Assembly (NCBI GenBank): GCA_938048695.1
Contig: CALIUO010000014.1
Span: 1 to 55,451 of the forward strand
Length of the DNA stretch: 55,451 bases
Source: an uncultured SAR86 cluster bacterium
Lineage (GTDB): Bacteria > Pseudomonadota > Gammaproteobacteria > Magnimaribacterales > Magnimaribacteraceae
Reading direction: 5' to 3'
In this document: positions 6,686 to 55,451 of the stretch, in pieces
Numbering within the stretch: the stretch's first letter is position 1
Layout: every line of letters begins with the position of its first letter
Notes under the pieces: generated by a model
Database searches by the model: none
What the model saw: the letters and a program-made list of their open reading frames with translations, nothing else
What the model was told of the DNA's origin: nothing
Translations under genes and position numbers: made by a program

Positions 6686-9478
6686 TTATTGATTATTTAA
6701 AGAAACAATTAAGTCGGCTACTGAAGCTAATGCTAAGTCTAAGTTATCAGTATTATCTACTCCGCCTTGGGCGAAATCTGGCCTTCCTCCCCCACTTCCA
6801 CCTAATTGATTAATTAAATGTTTCATTATTTCTCTAGCATCAATATCAACATCTTTTGAACACGCAACTATTGTCGGTGCTTTGTCATCTGTAATTGAAA
6901 TTAGGGCAATTATGGTATTAGGACTTTTATTTCTTAATCTATCGGCTATTTCTCTTAGTTCTTTGGCGTCAATTCCTTCAAAGTAGCTTGTTACGAGTTT
7001 ATGTCCTTCAACTTCTAAAGAGTTATCAATGAGGCTTTCTACGGATGATCCAATGTCCTGTGACTGCAATTCTTTTGATTTTTTTTGCAGAGACTTATTT
7101 TGATCTATTAAGGCTTCTAAGGCATCAATACAGTTATCAAATGTATTGAATTCAGTAATCTCTTTCCCTAAGAGTTGATTTAACTCAATATTTTCTTCTT
7201 TTATTTGAGTAATCTTTTTCAAAACTTGATCATTTGAACAATTAAGAATCTTTGCATAAGATGAAATTTCGTCTTCTAGAAAGCGGATATAATTTAAAAC
7301 TTCAATGCCATCTCTAGAGTCAAAATCTTCAACTAAAAGTTCGTTGCTTATAGCTGAATATGTTTGTTCAAGTTCGTCCAATAAAAAATTAGCACCATCA
7401 CCTGTGACAGCTTCAATCCGTCTTACTCCTGCAGAGATTCCAGACTCAGAAATAATTTTCATCACTCCTATTTCACCCGTTCTATCTACATGAGTACCTC
7501 CACAAAGCTCTACAGAAAAACCATTGCCTATATTTAAAACCCTAACTTCATCTCCGTATTTATCTCCAAAAAATGCAACGGCACCTTTCTCCATAGCATC
7601 ATTTATTGGAAGTACTTCAGTAACTGACTCAATATCTTTTGTTATTTCTAAATTGATCATATCTTCTATGGCTGCGAGGTCATCGGGCTGAATAGAGTGA
7701 TTATGGGCAAAATCAAATCTCAACCTAGATTCTTCAACCAGAGAGCCTTTTTGTTCCACATGATCTCCTAAGATATCTCTTAGAGCAGCATGCAAAAGAT
7801 GAGTCGCACTATGATTACTTTTTATTCTGTTCCTGTGAATGGTATTTATTTCAGCCATTACAGAATCATTTTTACTAAAAGTTCCTGATTTAACATGGCC
7901 TAGATGGAGAAAATGATCTCCTTTCTTTTGAGTATCATGAACTTCAAAAAGTGAGTTATCAGACTGAATAAACCCTTTATCTCCAACTTGGCCTCCAGAC
8001 TCAGCATAGAATGGAGTCTCGTTTAATAATATAAGTCCTTCTTCTCCTTCACTCAGTTGTTCTTTATTGCCTGTATCTGAGTGAGAGATAATCTCAACTA
8101 TCTTTGAGGAAGTTGAATAAGTATCGTAGCCTAAAAAATCAGTTTCACCCTCAATACTCAAAGATTCTGGAATAATTGTATTAAAGTTACTTGATGATCT
8201 AGCTCTTTCTTTTTGTTCAAGCATCAAGGCTTCATATGCCTTAATATCAACACTTAAGCTCCTTTCACGTGCAAAGTCGGCAGTCATGTCTACAGGAAAT
8301 CCATACGTATCATAGAGTTTGAAAACAATATCACCTGGTATCTCTTTGCTTTTTAAATTATCAACAGCAGATTCAAGTAGTTGCATTCCTTGTTCTAAGG
8401 TAGTTGAAAACTGCTCTTCCTCTCTAGATAGGTTGGCTCTAATAATATCTGAATTTTTTTCAAGTAATGGGTAAGCATTTCCCATTTTTTCTTCCAATAC
8501 ATGTACAAGCTTGGAAAGAATTCCTTCTTTCATTCCAAGTTTGTGAGCATGCCGGAGACCTCGTCTAATAATTCTGCGCAAAACATACCCCCTGCCTTCA
8601 TTTGATGGCACAACACCATCAGCAATTAAAAACGAAGAAGCTCTTAAATGATCAGCTATAACTCTTAGTGAGGGATTTGATAGGTCATTCTGTTCACAGA
8701 GTATTGCTGCTTCTTTAACTATAGCTTTCAGAATATCAGTTTCGTAATTATTATTTTCATTTTGTAAAACAGCAGCCATTCGCTCTAAACCCATTCCTGT
8801 ATCAACACAAGGATTTGGAAGTGGGCTAAAACTTCCATCTTTACTTCTATCAAATTGAGTAAAAACAAGATTCCAGATCTCTACGAATCTATCACCCGGT
8901 TCATTTCCTAGTTTAGGAGGATCGCCTTCAAGATGATCACCATGGTCATAGTAAATTTCGCTGCAAGGCCCGCAAGGTCCTGTATCTCCCATAGTCCAGA
9001 AATTTTCTTCGTCATCTAATCTTGAAACCCTCGAAGGATCAACTCCAACTTTATTAATCCATATGTCTTCCGACTCATCATCACTTTCGTGAACAGTAAT
9101 CCATAATTTTTCAGGTGAAATTTCGTACCTTTCTGTTAGTAATTCCCAGGCAAATAGTATTGCATCCTCTTTAAAATAATCACCGAAGCTAAAATTACCA
9201 AGCATTTCAAAAAGTGTATGGTGTCTTGCCGTATAGCCCACATTATCTAGATCGTTATGTTTTCCTCCAGCTCTAATGCATCGCTGAGAGCTTACAGCTC
9301 TTGTGTAGTTTCTATTCTCAACTCCAAGGAGTAAATCCTTAAATGGAACCATACCTGCATTAGTGAATAGCAATGTAGGATCATTAACTGGAATCAATGA
9401 AGCACTTTCTACAAGAGTATGTCCCTTCTCTTGAAAGAAATCTAAGTAGATTTTTCGTATTTCGTCAGTAGAAAGCAT
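6686..9478 (-). CDS. alaS: alanyl-tRNA synthetase with an extended C-terminal linker
   Basis: AlaRS charges tRNA-Ala and edits Ser/Gly mischarging. The catalytic core is intact (DPTLLFTNAGM at about 32-42, TARHHTLFEMLGNFSFGDYF at about 83-102). The editing domain has HSATHLLH (near 557) and CGGTHV (near 659), which supply the zinc ligands. The C-Ala domain ends with GGSGGGRPDFAQGG. At 930 residues it is about 50 longer than E. coli AlaRS (876). The surplus lies between the editing domain and C-Ala (about residues 695-805), in a Glu/Lys/Leu-rich, coiled-coil-like stretch. It heads the alaS-lysC-membrane protein run. Confidence 0.98.
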   Translation of the reverse strand: MLSTDEIRKIYLDFFQEKGHTLVESASLIPVNDPTLLFTNAGMVPFKDLLLGVENRNYTRAVSSQRCIRAGGKHNDLDNVGYTARHHTLFEMLGNFSFGDYFKEDAILFAWELLTERYEISPEKLWITVHESDDESEDIWINKVGVDPSRVSRLDDEENFWTMGDTGPCGPCSEIYYDHGDHLEGDPPKLGNEPGDRFVEIWNLVFTQFDRSKDGSFSPLPNPCVDTGMGLERMAAVLQNENNNYETDILKAIVKEAAILCEQNDLSNPSLRVIADHLRASSFLIADGVVPSNEGRGYVLRRIIRRGLRHAHKLGMKEGILSKLVHVLEEKMGNAYPLLEKNSDIIRANLSREEEQFSTTLEQGMQLLESAVDNLKSKEIPGDIVFKLYDTYGFPVDMTADFARERSLSVDIKAYEALMLEQKERARSSSNFNTIIPESLSIEGETDFLGYDTYSTSSKIVEIISHSDTGNKEQLSEGEEGLILLNETPFYAESGGQVGDKGFIQSDNSLFEVHDTQKKGDHFLHLGHVKSGTFSKNDSVMAEINTIHRNRIKSNHSATHLLHAALRDILGDHVEQKGSLVEESRLRFDFAHNHSIQPDDLAAIEDMINLEITKDIESVTEVLPINDAMEKGAVAFFGDKYGDEVRVLNIGNGFSVELCGGTHVDRTGEIGVMKIISESGISAGVRRIEAVTGDGANFLLDELEQTYSAISNELLVEDFDSRDGIEVLNYIRFLEDEISSYAKILNCSNDQVLKKITQIKEENIELNQLLGKEITEFNTFDNCIDALEALIDQNKSLQKKSKELQSQDIGSSVESLIDNSLEVEGHKLVTSYFEGIDAKELREIADRLRNKSPNTIIALISITDDKAPTIVACSKDVDIDAREIMKHLINQLGGSGGGRPDFAQGGVDNTDNLDLALASVADLIVSLNNQ

Positions 9479-53132: not shown

Positions 53133-54137
53133 TTAAACCTTACGAAGATTTAAGATGTCTTCAATTAATTGGGGACCCTCGTATATGAAACCAGTATAAA
53201 TTTGTACAAGGTTAGCGCCTGCATCTAATTTTTCTTGATAATCCTGAGCACTCATAACTCCTCCTGATGCTATTATGGGGAGTTTATTACCCACCAACCT
53301 TCGCACGTTAACTAGACATTCTGTAGCCTTATTCTTTAGAGGAGCACCACTAAGTCCACCAGGACCATTTTTGTGGTCATGATCGACAGTTGTATTACTA
53401 CAAATTATTCCATCTAGTTTACTATCCAAAATTGAAGAGCAAATTATTGCCAAGTCATTTGAATGTTCGTCAGGACTTATCTTTATGAAAATTGGAACAT
53501 ATTTTCCGTCGGTAGAAAGTTGATTTTGTATTTTTTTTATCGCTTTAAGAAACGAATTAAAATTTTCTCCATGACTCAGTTCTCTCAACTCTTTGGTATT
53601 TGGTGAAGAAATATTTATCGCAATGTAGTCAGAATGTTCGTAAACCTTTTTAATACAATGTAGATAATCTTCTAGTGCATTGTCATTTGGAGTATCAAAG
53701 TTTTTACCAATACTGGTACCAACTATTGTTTGGGTTTTTTTTCTTTTCAGTCTCTTGACTAAGTGATCAACTCCTTTGTTATTAAATCCTAGTCTATTAA
53801 TAAGGGATCGATCTTTAAGGTTTCTAAAAATTCTTGGTTTTGGATTACCAGTTTGAGGCCGAGGAGTAATTGTTCCTACTTCTATAAAGTCAACTCCTAG
53901 AGCGGCAAGACAATCAATATAATCGCCGTTTTTATCTAAACCTGCAGCTATACCGATCTTTGCATTCAAATGCGTTATATCTCTATTCTTAAATTTTAGA
54001 TTTGAATCTTTCTTATGTGCAAAAAGCTTTAAAAGGCCGGTAAAGTATAGAAATTTTAGGCCTTTAAGGGCCAGATGATGTGAAAATTCACCTGGCAAAT
54101 AGTGCATCATCTTTGTAAAAAAGGAAATTAAATTCAT
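53133..54137 (-). CDS. pyrD: dihydroorotate dehydrogenase, quinone-dependent
   Basis: PyrD class 2 oxidises dihydroorotate to orotate at the inner membrane, passing electrons to quinone. The 334-residue protein has the N-terminal membrane-association helices (1-45), GIAAGLDKNGD (near 62-72), EVGTITPRPQTGNPKPRIFR (near 86-105), the catalytic Ser in NISSPNTKELREL (near 175-187), and GPGGLSGAPL (near 257-266). A 9-base inverted repeat (53103-53111/53129-53137) overlaps its stop codon, without a T-run. Divergent from the repeat-protein gene. Confidence 0.97.
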   Translation of the reverse strand: MNLISFFTKMMHYLPGEFSHHLALKGLKFLYFTGLLKLFAHKKDSNLKFKNRDITHLNAKIGIAAGLDKNGDYIDCLAALGVDFIEVGTITPRPQTGNPKPRIFRNLKDRSLINRLGFNNKGVDHLVKRLKRKKTQTIVGTSIGKNFDTPNDNALEDYLHCIKKVYEHSDYIAINISSPNTKELRELSHGENFNSFLKAIKKIQNQLSTDGKYVPIFIKISPDEHSNDLAIICSSILDSKLDGIICSNTTVDHDHKNGPGGLSGAPLKNKATECLVNVRRLVGNKLPIIASGGVMSAQDYQEKLDAGANLVQIYTGFIYEGPQLIEDILNLRKV

Positions 54138-54243: not shown

Positions 54244-54273
54244 TTGACATAATGGCGTAATTTGAACTTTAAT
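54244..54273 (+). promoter_or_regulatory. promoter of the repeat-protein gene
   Basis: TTGACA (54244-54249), 18-base spacer, TTTAAT (54268-54273). The -35 is perfect and the -10 matches four of six. It is the best candidate in the 197-base space before the ATG at 54335 and implies a leader of about 55 bases. Nothing else was recognised in 54138-54334. Confidence 0.55.
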
Positions 54274-54334
54274 ACGCAAAGTAGTTCCCAATCCCTACCA
54301 AAATTGGATAAAAATTAATTAAACAGGTTTTAAG

Positions 54335-55093
54335 ATGAAACAATTATCAAAAAATATTCTTGCTACTTTGTCTGGATTAGCTCTGGTTGTATTTCCTCAA
54401 ATCGGATTCTCAGAAGTAGAAGAATCTGCGGCTGAAGCAACCGGTGGCGCAGCAGGAGAAGCTGCAGCCAAATCAGCTATTGGTGGGGTAAGTGCTGGAA
54501 CAATAGCCGCTGTAGTAGCAATCGCAGCAGCAGCAGCTGCTATTTCTGATAGTGGCTCTGGTGGAGGGGCGATAACTCCTACTCCTACGCCCACGCCTAC
54601 GCCCACGCCTACGCCTACGCCTACTCCTACTCCTACGCCTACTCCTACTCCTACAATAGAAGAGTATGTGACTGAGGTAGTAGTCGTTATTCCTGGAACT
54701 GCTTCATCAACTACTGCAGGAGCAACTGCAACTAGAACTACTGGTGCTACAGCAACTAGAACAACTGGTGCTACAGCAACTAGGACTACTGGTGCTACAG
54801 CAACTAGAACAACTGGTGCTACAGCAACAAGGACTACTGGTGCTACAGCAACTAGGACTACTGGTGCTACAGCAACCGCCACTGTTGGTGGAACAATTGT
54901 TGTTCAAGATGTTGTTGAAGAATACGAGGTAGAAGAAACTTATGATGTTGTAGAAACTTACGATGTTGTGGAAGAATATGAGGTTTCAGAAGAGTATGAC
55001 TTAACTGAAGAATATACTACAACAGTAACAGTTCCTGCTGTAGCTGCTTCAACTGCAACTGCAACTGCAACTGCTACCAGAGAAGTAGATTAG
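54335..55093 (+). CDS. secreted low-complexity repeat protein, GfcA/YjbE-like architecture
   Basis: 252 residues. A signal peptide (about 1-26, ending IGFSEVE) leads to an Ala/Gly-rich hydrophobic stretch (about 48-68, GGVSAGTIAAVVAIAAAAAA), then DSGSGGG. A (Thr-Pro)13 run (about 81-107), six GATATRTT octapeptides plus one variant (about 129-184), a Tyr/Glu/Val-rich segment with EEY and ETYDVV units (about 189-228), and a Thr/Ala tail follow. The order signal, Ala/Gly/Val hydrophobic stretch, DSGxGG, Thr-rich end recalls E. coli GfcA and YjbE (80-100 aa) of the group-4 capsule and yjb exopolysaccharide operons, here greatly expanded. The neighbouring YjbF-like gene supports this. Function is unknown; a surface or polysaccharide-associated role is inference. 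The frame is kept through all repeats and the minus-strand frame is a shadow. Confidence 0.85.
   Translation: MKQLSKNILATLSGLALVVFPQIGFSEVEESAAEATGGAAGEAAAKSAIGGVSAGTIAAVVAIAAAAAAISDSGSGGGAITPTPTPTPTPTPTPTPTPTPTPTPTPTIEEYVTEVVVVIPGTASSTTAGATATRTTGATATRTTGATATRTTGATATRTTGATATRTTGATATRTTGATATATVGGTIVVQDVVEEYEVEETYDVVETYDVVEEYEVSEEYDLTEEYTTTVTVPAVAASTATATATATREVD
54575..54655 (+). repeat. 6-base coding tandem repeat, (Thr-Pro)13
   Basis: Thirteen ACN-CCN units plus a final ACA. Third bases vary (ACT/ACG, CCT/CCC), so selection seems to keep the protein repeat, not just a slipped DNA repeat. Unit number is likely to vary among strains. Confidence 0.95.
54719..54886 (+). repeat. 24-base coding tandem repeat, GATATRTT x6 plus one variant
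   Basis: Seven in-frame 24-base units starting at GGA 54719. Units 1-6 encode GATATRTT; unit 7 (54863-54886) encodes GATATATV. Synonymous differences (AGA/AGG, ACT/ACA) separate neighbouring units. No spacers, so it is not a CRISPR array. Confidence 0.95.
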
Positions 55094-55113
55094 TCTACCC
55101 TCAGCACTTACAC

Positions 55114-55138
55114 AAAAGGCCCCTATTGGGGCCTTTTT
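55114..55138. terminator. bidirectional intrinsic terminator overlapping the YjbF-like stop codon
   Basis: Perfect 10-bp stem AAAAGGCCCC (55114-55123) / GGGGCCTTTT (55128-55137) with a 4-base loop. It follows the repeat-protein stop by 20 bases. On the minus strand the loop-side arm encodes the last residues of the YjbF-like protein, and its TAG stop (55123-55125) sits at the loop. Confidence 0.9.
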
Positions 55139-55451
55139 GTTATCTCAATATAAATAGGTGGTAACTTAGGTGATATGTGTTGAATTGACTTCCAAACAAA
55201 ACCTGTTTCATCTACCCAAAATTTATTTTCTTTATTCCAACCAATTGTTTCAGAGACTACATTCTCCATTATGAGCCTAAGCTCTTTGTCTTCAAAAACT
55301 AAATCCTCTATAGTTGTGCCGGCCAATCTAGAACTTGATTTAACCTTTAAATTATTAAGAGATGGATTTAAGAAAGAATAATAAGAGATGTAAGATTGAT
55401 CAGCATAAATTATATCCTCCCAACTAAAAGATGAGGATTCTATTCTTAGAA
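55123..55451 (-). CDS. YjbF/GfcB-like lipoprotein, C-terminal part (cut by window edge)
   Basis: The minus-strand frame is open from the right edge to the TAG at 55123, giving about 109 residues; the N-terminus, where a lipobox would lie, is outside. The end NKFWVDETGFVWKSIQ followed by ISPKLPPIYIEITKRPQ fits the C-terminus of the YjbF/GfcB group-4 capsule lipoproteins (N-x-FW-x-D-x-x-G-x-V-x-x-S-x-Q, later a P-x-x pattern and a KP/RP ending). This is a by-eye family match. YjbF-type proteins act in exopolysaccharide production in the periplasm or outer membrane. Convergent with the GfcA/YjbE-like gene, whereas in E. coli yjbE and yjbF lie in one operon. Confidence 0.6.
   Translation of the reverse strand, partial: LRIESSSFSWEDIIYADQSYISYYSFLNPSLNNLKVKSSSRLAGTTIEDLVFEDKELRLIMENVVSETIGWNKENKFWVDETGFVWKSIQHISPKLPPIYIEITKRPQ

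Follow-up and report, generated by a model that had tools for sequence, protein, structure and literature searches.

The closest described counterparts of the locus analysed here are the gfcABCDE and yjbEFGH loci of Escherichia coli. According to the published accounts, deletion of gfcA abolishes the capsule of EPEC and a gfcA plasmid restores it (PMC3853201), GfcA is suggested to be modified with O-antigen and exported by GfcD (PMC8592465), and both GfcB, the fold of which is LolA-like, and GfcC interact with GfcD (PMC8592465, PMC9603273). In the same literature, E. coli GfcD is described as having a 12-stranded and a 13-stranded barrel and, in the periplasm, a middle domain (PMC11494523), a match to the amyloid transporter FapF is reported for the N-terminal halves of GfcD and YjbH (PMC9603273), and GfcA itself is termed a protein of unknown function or uncharacterised (PMC8592465, PMC11494523). 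In the K-12 annotation GfcA appears as a "threonine-rich inner membrane protein".

The window, i.e., the whole stretch of 55,451 nucleotides analysed here, is the complete contig C14 of a 1.33 Mb assembly (85% complete) of an uncultured SAR86 cluster bacterium, and at its right end a gene for a repeat protein faces a partial yjbF gene. The repeat protein shares with E. coli GfcA (group 4 capsule) and YjbE (PF11106) a signal-like start, an Ala/Val/Gly stretch, an Asp/Ser/Gly turn and a Thr-rich C-terminus, and in both systems the gene lies beside gfcB/yjbF. It differs from them in length (252 amino acids versus 101 in GfcA and 80 in YjbE), in having a TP stalk, octads and an acidic ladder that are absent from the E. 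coli proteins, and in being encoded convergently with yjbF, whereas gfcA and yjbE are the first genes of their operons. Like the E. coli loci, those of SAR86 relatives encode YjbF and YjbH; however, their order is OPX (outer-membrane polysaccharide exporter), yjbH and yjbF, followed by the convergent repeat gene. The repeat protein is of the already known but unexplained GfcA/YjbE kind, and what is new is its SAR86-expanded form. Below, f1 (which includes the window), f2 and f3 denote three families within the SAR86 order.

Architecture of the repeat protein gene and its flanks

The features of the right end of the window are collected in Table 1.

Table 1. Repeat protein gene, its parts and its neighbours, in window coordinates
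Feature	Position	Strand	Basis or remark
Repeat protein gene, SAR86-expanded GfcA/YjbE-type protein	54335..55093	+	252 aa ORF, ATG start
Signal-peptide-like N-terminus, residues 1-25	54335..54409	+	Judged by eye; AlphaFold helix 2-22
Predicted helix, residues 39-70, with conserved Ala/Val/Gly hydrophobic block	54449..54544	+	AlphaFold, low confidence
(TP)13 stalk, residues 81-107	54575..54655	+	TRF period 6
Octad array, six GATATRTT and a degenerate GATATATV, residues 129-184	54719..54886	+	TRF period 24, codon analysis
Acidic Tyr/Glu ladder, residues 195-227	54917..55015	+	TRF period 18; no predicted structure
Thr-rich C-terminal tail ending TATATATREVD, residues 228-252	55016..55090	+	f1 alignment
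yjbF/gfcB 3' part, cut by contig end	55123..55451	-	PF11102 match, profile 118-187 of 189
Terminator-like hairpin between convergent genes	55114..55137	.	10 pairs, 6 G-C, T tail
Promoter-like element TTGACA-18 bases-TTTAAT, start of conserved 5' leader	54244..54273	+	f1 upstream alignment, by eye
pyrD, flanking gene divergent from repeat gene (context only)	53133..54137	-	PF01180, E 1.8e-67

The repeat tracts were delineated with TRF, which reports a period of 6 at 54578-54654 (12.8 copies), a period of 24 at 54728-54876 (6.2 copies, 92% matches, score 256) and a period of 18 at 54908-54973 (3.7 copies, 72% matches). The (TP)13 run and the Tyr/Glu ladder that a preliminary description had placed in a 252-residue protein are both present, by TRF as well as in the ORF translation, the stalk being 27 residues long, (TP)13 plus a T. 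The seven octads claimed there are indeed seven in total; only six are exact, the seventh being degenerate. Toward the C-terminus, T248 and R249 are invariant in 12 aligned f1 sequences. Past the signal region AlphaFold predicts a single helix, with the remainder of the protein disordered, at a mean pLDDT of 44 that denotes low confidence. As a feature of this genome the repeat protein is real, coherent and under selection.

The hydrophobic block, GGVSAGTIAAVVAIAAAAAAISDSGSGGG, lies mostly inside the predicted helix and reaches a maximum KD19 of 2.22. A KD19 of 2.2 falls in the range of membrane helices, and together with the K-12 annotation of GfcA and a weak NCBIfam match over the Pro-rich region of TonB this would fit an inner-membrane protein, anchored by the hydrophobic block and bearing a periplasm-spanning or cytoplasmic tail, TonB-like with its proline stalk. 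We regard such a protein as unlikely: if the signal peptide is cleaved and the block then stops transfer, the tail would remain in the cytoplasm, where repeats of this kind would seem out of place, and the TonB match resembles low complexity, with 12.7 bits against a cut-off of 315.

Several other identities were rejected. For a Gp5-like triple beta-helix in the octads, Pfam offers only Gp5_trimer_C at E 0.41, and the model has no structure there; matches to SslE, InlK, TonB, MccV and Mito_fiss_reg are far below their cut-offs and resemble low complexity; and a phage origin finds no PHROGs match at E 0.01 for either the window protein or a 788-residue relative. The only named relative among the matches listed for the N-terminus of the repeat protein is the SAR86 isolate AG-422-M05.

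The ORF facing the repeat gene (55123-55449, minus strand) encodes the C-terminal 108 residues of YjbF/GfcB and matches PF11102 at E 1.2e-9, with 38.6 bits against a cut-off of 25.9, i.e., above the curated threshold, in agreement with its earlier reading as a YjbF-like partial gene. The terminator that the two genes were proposed to share fits the hairpin with its T tail, which also covers the yjbF stop codon. That the repeat gene does not form one operon with yjbF likewise holds, as it is convergent and has its own promoter-like element. In this element TTGAC is invariant in 13/13 aligned f1 upstream regions; a consensus promoter scan does not list it, and it was read from the alignment. An RNA element in the leader is not supported, there being no Rfam match at gathering scores. 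In the leader upstream of the repeat gene (window 54244-54330), AATACGCAAAGTAGTTCCCAA and CCCTAC are kept in most f1 sequences.

A Yjb/Gfc-type export locus in SAR86

Because the contig ends where the window does on the right, the remainder of the operon was read in relatives. Among the 35 f1 genomes YjbF is found in 16 and YjbH in 15, all of the latter being YjbF-positive; the two counts differ because the contig of the window genome, whose assembly is the one without YjbH, ends in yjbF. On long f1 contigs the gene order is sirtuin, Vut_1, NAD kinase, OPX, YjbH, YjbF, the convergent repeat gene, pyrD, topA and lexA, with the domains tested in G028, G016 and the window. Poly_export is found in 15 of the 35 genomes, in 14 of them at the yjbF locus, and the copy in G005 lies elsewhere in a genome without YjbF. 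Wzz was considered as a further partner and proved uninformative, as it occurs in 18/35 genomes both with and without YjbF. The YjbF of G028 matches the solved chain 2in5_A (YmcC, which we take to be GfcB) at E 5.1e-8.

The preliminary description had proposed looking for gfcC/yjbG and yjbH beyond the right edge and would have been refuted by a lack of all of them. In the relatives YjbH adjoins YjbF, so it is not the case that gfcC, yjbG and yjbH are all missing there. In contrast to the E. coli gfc and yjb loci, those read in SAR86 showed no stand-alone yjbG/gfcC gene; instead, the OPX proteins of G028 and G016 and one from f2 combine Poly_export and SLBB domains with a fused GfcC C-terminal domain. 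PMC9603273 describes the same Poly_export-SLBB-GfcC order for class 2 OPX proteins, from which the f3 OPX tested (869 amino acids) differs in having no GfcC_C match at E 0.01. These genes indicate that some members of SAR86, a marine lineage not yet in culture, have an exporter dedicated to a surface polymer; among the open papers searched, none names SAR86 together with YjbH, and none SAR86 together with YjbF. As a separate observation, 25 OPX proteins from f1-f3 (L031-L044, L101-L119) have a similar hydrophobic, Ala/Ser-rich C-terminal segment, e.g., TPILADLATSAAAIAAISD, resembling the helix block of the repeat protein.

A model of the SAR86 YjbH (37 sequences, mean pLDDT 84) has a first set of 12 strands (57-278) and a second of 13 (431-670), separated by a middle domain, and resembles E. 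coli GfcD as described in PMC11494523. Such an architecture would suit an export substrate: the repeat protein could be the cargo of YjbH, its disordered, Thr-rich, possibly glycosylated chain passing through the N-terminal barrel of the latter and being either released or displayed in the manner of an extracellular matrix protein. The predicted lack of structure in its tail points the same way, as do the published FapF match of the N-terminal halves of GfcD and YjbH (PMC9603273) and the suggested modification of GfcA and its routing to GfcD (PMC8592465). We consider a cargo role possible, though doubtful, as FapF is not among the best 50 of 861 solved-structure matches to the SAR86 YjbH model, those 50 being various barrels, including BcsC and AlgE, with low TM-scores; by sequence, no solved relative of SAR86 YjbH was found at E 1. 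Also against it, the contig of the non-SAR86 genome G290 that holds yjbF and the GfcA-like gene holds neither gfcC nor yjbH, these two lying on a separate contig.

Constant pairing of the repeat gene with yjbF

Of 151 sampled genomes of the SAR86 order, 37 have YjbF (16 in f1, 13 in f2 and 8 in f3), in one of them, G100, below Pfam's cut-off. We read all 37 neighbourhoods and found a repeat-type gene convergent to yjbF in 36, the exception being G020, whose contig ends within yjbF. Orthologues of the repeat gene are present in 15 f1 genomes, the window's own included, and, by synteny and profile, in f2 and f3 genomes; in G001 the gene is present in two contigs, the copy in G025 is cut off and lacks a start, and that in G018 contains unread bases. 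The neighbour on the far side of the repeat gene is pyrD in f1 and f3 and a luciferase-like monooxygenase gene in f2 (pyrD was tested in the window and one f3 genome, the luciferase-like gene in one f2 genome, and the others were judged by eye). Because the far-side gene differs between families, the pair can be said to be kept together in different surroundings.

Outside SAR86, YjbF was found in 7 further genomes of the 369 members of the class searched, and each of the seven encodes near yjbF a small secreted-looking protein with a signal-like start, an Ala/Val/Gly hydrophobic block, Asp/Ser/Gly and a Thr-rich tail. The GfcA/YjbE outline previously ascribed to the window protein is thereby recognisable as a layout common to the small proteins beside or near yjbF in 7/7 non-SAR86 Gammaproteobacteria with YjbF. 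In G290 the gene is convergent, as is the window gene, which does not have the first-gene position of a yjbE-F-G-H operon; in the other six genomes it precedes yjbF in the same orientation, separated from it by an OPX gene in G314 and G422. A small protein of this layout is also encoded next to the yjbF-type gene in both E. coli K-12 loci. G320 has two tandem GfcA-like genes beside yjbF (L132:7752-8042 and 8134-8466, minus strand), both with GTTGT-type tails.

A layout rule, written after the sequences had been seen, picked 32 ORFs in 43 loci, of which 31 lie beside yjbF or one gene away, one is antisense to such a gene and none lies elsewhere. Of the 35 SAR86 proteins counted in those loci by eye and synteny, 12 escaped the rule. 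In G290 the contig that carries GfcC and YjbH together has no ORF meeting this rule in the surrounding 12 kb, and therefore, in this one case, the GfcA-like protein goes with YjbF. A third G290 contig has a weak YjbH-like match and no rule hit in 13 kb. The third contig (G290 loci: L127, L186, L187) also holds Wzc-like and OPX-like genes and a 560-residue lipoprotein-like ORF ending in T/G/S, the names being assigned by eye.

An unrelated surface repeat protein standing beside yjbF by chance would agree with the separate, convergent transcription unit and with the lack of a significant Pfam family match. We hold this to be very improbable since the pairing is constant in three SAR86 families whose flanks differ, and a protein of similar build occurs in seven other Gammaproteobacteria.

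The patchy presence of the locus within f1 is not supported as true gene gain or loss, contig ends accounting for the checked genomes with a pyrD match. Among the 11 of 19 YjbF-negative f1 genomes that were checked, 7 have no match to the window pyrD, and the other four (G023, G031, G004 and G008) have contigs that stop in pyrD or no more than about 460 bases from it, that of G031 ending ten bases into the repeat gene. The contigs of G007 and G010 end inside the repeat gene as well. With contigs ending in or near the repeat gene or pyrD, the locus therefore appears absent. Its absence from other families of the SAR86 order may be real. Several SAR86 assemblies have contigs (L156, L090, L096, L158, L159) that break off within pyrD, within the repeat gene or shortly before the latter. 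G030, a single contig rated 95% complete, has no match to the window pyrD protein.

Three sizes of one family

The f3 form of the protein is 122-129 amino acids long and consists of the helix block, a short Pro-containing link, an acidic stretch and a Thr/Ser tail, an E. coli-like layout. The f2 form, of 219-313 amino acids, has in most cases an AP/TP stalk and then varied Thr-rich and acidic parts, with T[AG]TR near the end in 8/13 proteins. The f1 form has 219-281 amino acids in uncut copies and 1 to 8 octad cores (15 listed), plus one protein of 788 amino acids in G016. This comparison therefore places the additions between the helix and the Thr-rich end. Outside residues 1-25, each of the 33 proteins listed carries a net negative charge (-12 to -59).

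By profile comparison, the proteins of f1, f2 and f3 form one family within SAR86. In a set of 1,214 sequences, comprising the ORFs from the loci with two E. coli proteins, a profile built from f1 and f2 only places 8/8 f3 members (E 3.8e-9 to 2.1e-4) ahead of all ORFs from outside the family. The f3 profile recovers, at E 0.002 or better, 13 members of f2 and two of f1, most f1 members not being found. The f1 profile matches 8 f3 members and the f2 members, with the qualification that L103 of f3 is outside the 52 matches listed. An earlier profile, A2, had found 11/13 f2 and 0/8 f3 members in whole genomes at E 0.001.

Relationship to E. coli GfcA and YjbE

The SAR86 repeat protein may share a common descent with E. 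coli GfcA/YjbE, a view toward which we lean. As the evidence for homology to the E. coli proteins is weak, we call the window protein GfcA/YjbE-type by context and architecture. Pfam's YjbE family, PF11106, matches E. coli YjbE at 5e-33, misses E. coli GfcA and gives no match to the window protein or two relatives. With a composition-corrected profile of 25 SAR86 sequences, YjbE and the G290 protein beat all 200 local shuffles (window 6), 58/200 shuffles matched GfcA, and at least 35/200 matched each of seven among the eight remaining non-SAR86 proteins. With full shuffles, uncorrected, all ten non-SAR86 proteins were matched by at most 3/200, a result that tests block layout, not descent.

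Ranked among the 1,214 ORFs, YjbE reaches E 0.44 with the 25-sequence profile, behind four non-family ORFs; with the f1 and f2 profile the first entry below the SAR86 family is GfcA (E 0.099), YjbE standing at 0.38 (1,214 sequences). The f1 profile finds the non-SAR86 protein of G340 at E 2.6e-4. Profile-profile comparison with hhalign gives a probability of 82% over only 16 aligned columns, and one of 8% for profile A2 against YjbE alone.

Selection and history of the repeats

Strong purifying selection acts on the hydrophobic block. Its 24 codons show 13-17 synonymous and 0 nonsynonymous differences between the window and six same-genus relatives; of 11 relatives compared with the window, six have no nonsynonymous difference there and the remaining five have 1-8. 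For codons 2-25 of these genes the nonsynonymous count is 5-23, a figure that is inflated because the comparison was ungapped and the start of G024 is at least one residue off.

Between adjacent octads of the window all 10 codon differences are synonymous and 0/5 pairs are identical as DNA, which argues for more than recent DNA slippage. Across 12 genes, adjacent octads differ by 92 synonymous versus 16 nonsynonymous codons in 41 pairs, 5 of them identical as DNA. This silent drift implies that the octad peptide is old enough for drift at silent sites; concerted exchange followed by drift would give a similar codon pattern. A search for the octad in the 35 family genomes returned 16 matches at E <= 1, in 13 genomes, all in the repeat gene and one of them antisense.

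A proposed docking model for the repeat protein

From what was computed, namely the family within SAR86, its context, the conserved helix, the predicted disorder and the selection, we infer a localisation, docking partner, surface exposure, glycosylation and role for the repeat protein. In the reading that we favour, with some reserve, it is the SAR86 version of a GfcA/YjbE-type companion of the Yjb/Gfc export locus; its helix would serve for docking, and its disordered tail would probably lie exposed at the surface. Its partners at the locus would be the OPX exporter with its fused GfcC domain, the YjbH double barrel and the YjbF lipoprotein. The protein would be exported by Sec, and the conserved Ala/Val/Gly helix would dock it to the outer-membrane export complex, with YjbF as the nearest partner. 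Its enlargement would have come about by insertion of the Pro-Thr stalk, the Thr/Ala/Arg octads and the acidic Tyr ladder between an ancestral helix and an ancestral Thr-rich end. The disordered acidic tail may then reach outward as a flexible, possibly O-glycosylated brush or as a tether for the exported polymer. Against this reading count the weak homology to the E. coli proteins, the position of the gene outside the operon with a promoter-like element of its own, the low confidence of the AlphaFold model, and the consideration that a stop-transfer function of the hydrophobic block would place the tail in the cytoplasm.

A more specific version, which we put forward tentatively and consider distinctly unlikely, is a carrier-client pair. 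Here the LolA-like YjbF/GfcB would hold the Ala-rich helix in its hydrophobic cavity and place the GfcA-type protein in or on the outer-membrane exporter, so that the Thr-rich, perhaps glycan-bearing, disordered tail would emerge beside the growing polymer, in SAR86 as an elongated brush on the surface. What is conserved as a unit would then be this pair rather than the operon in its entirety.

The pairing points to YjbF as the partner to test, and the size series separates the parts that are kept, a short helix and a Thr-rich end, from those free to expand; the constant partnership with YjbF and the graded series from short to expanded forms therefore make the question of GfcA function testable. 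Proteins of the GfcA outline that travel with YjbF range in size between the 80 residues of E. coli YjbE and the 788 found in one SAR86 genome. In this longest protein (G016, L031:8274-10640, minus strand), the octads are followed by six DPNTG units, most of which precede a PGYLGDYV-like stretch, and there are two cysteines at the C-terminus.
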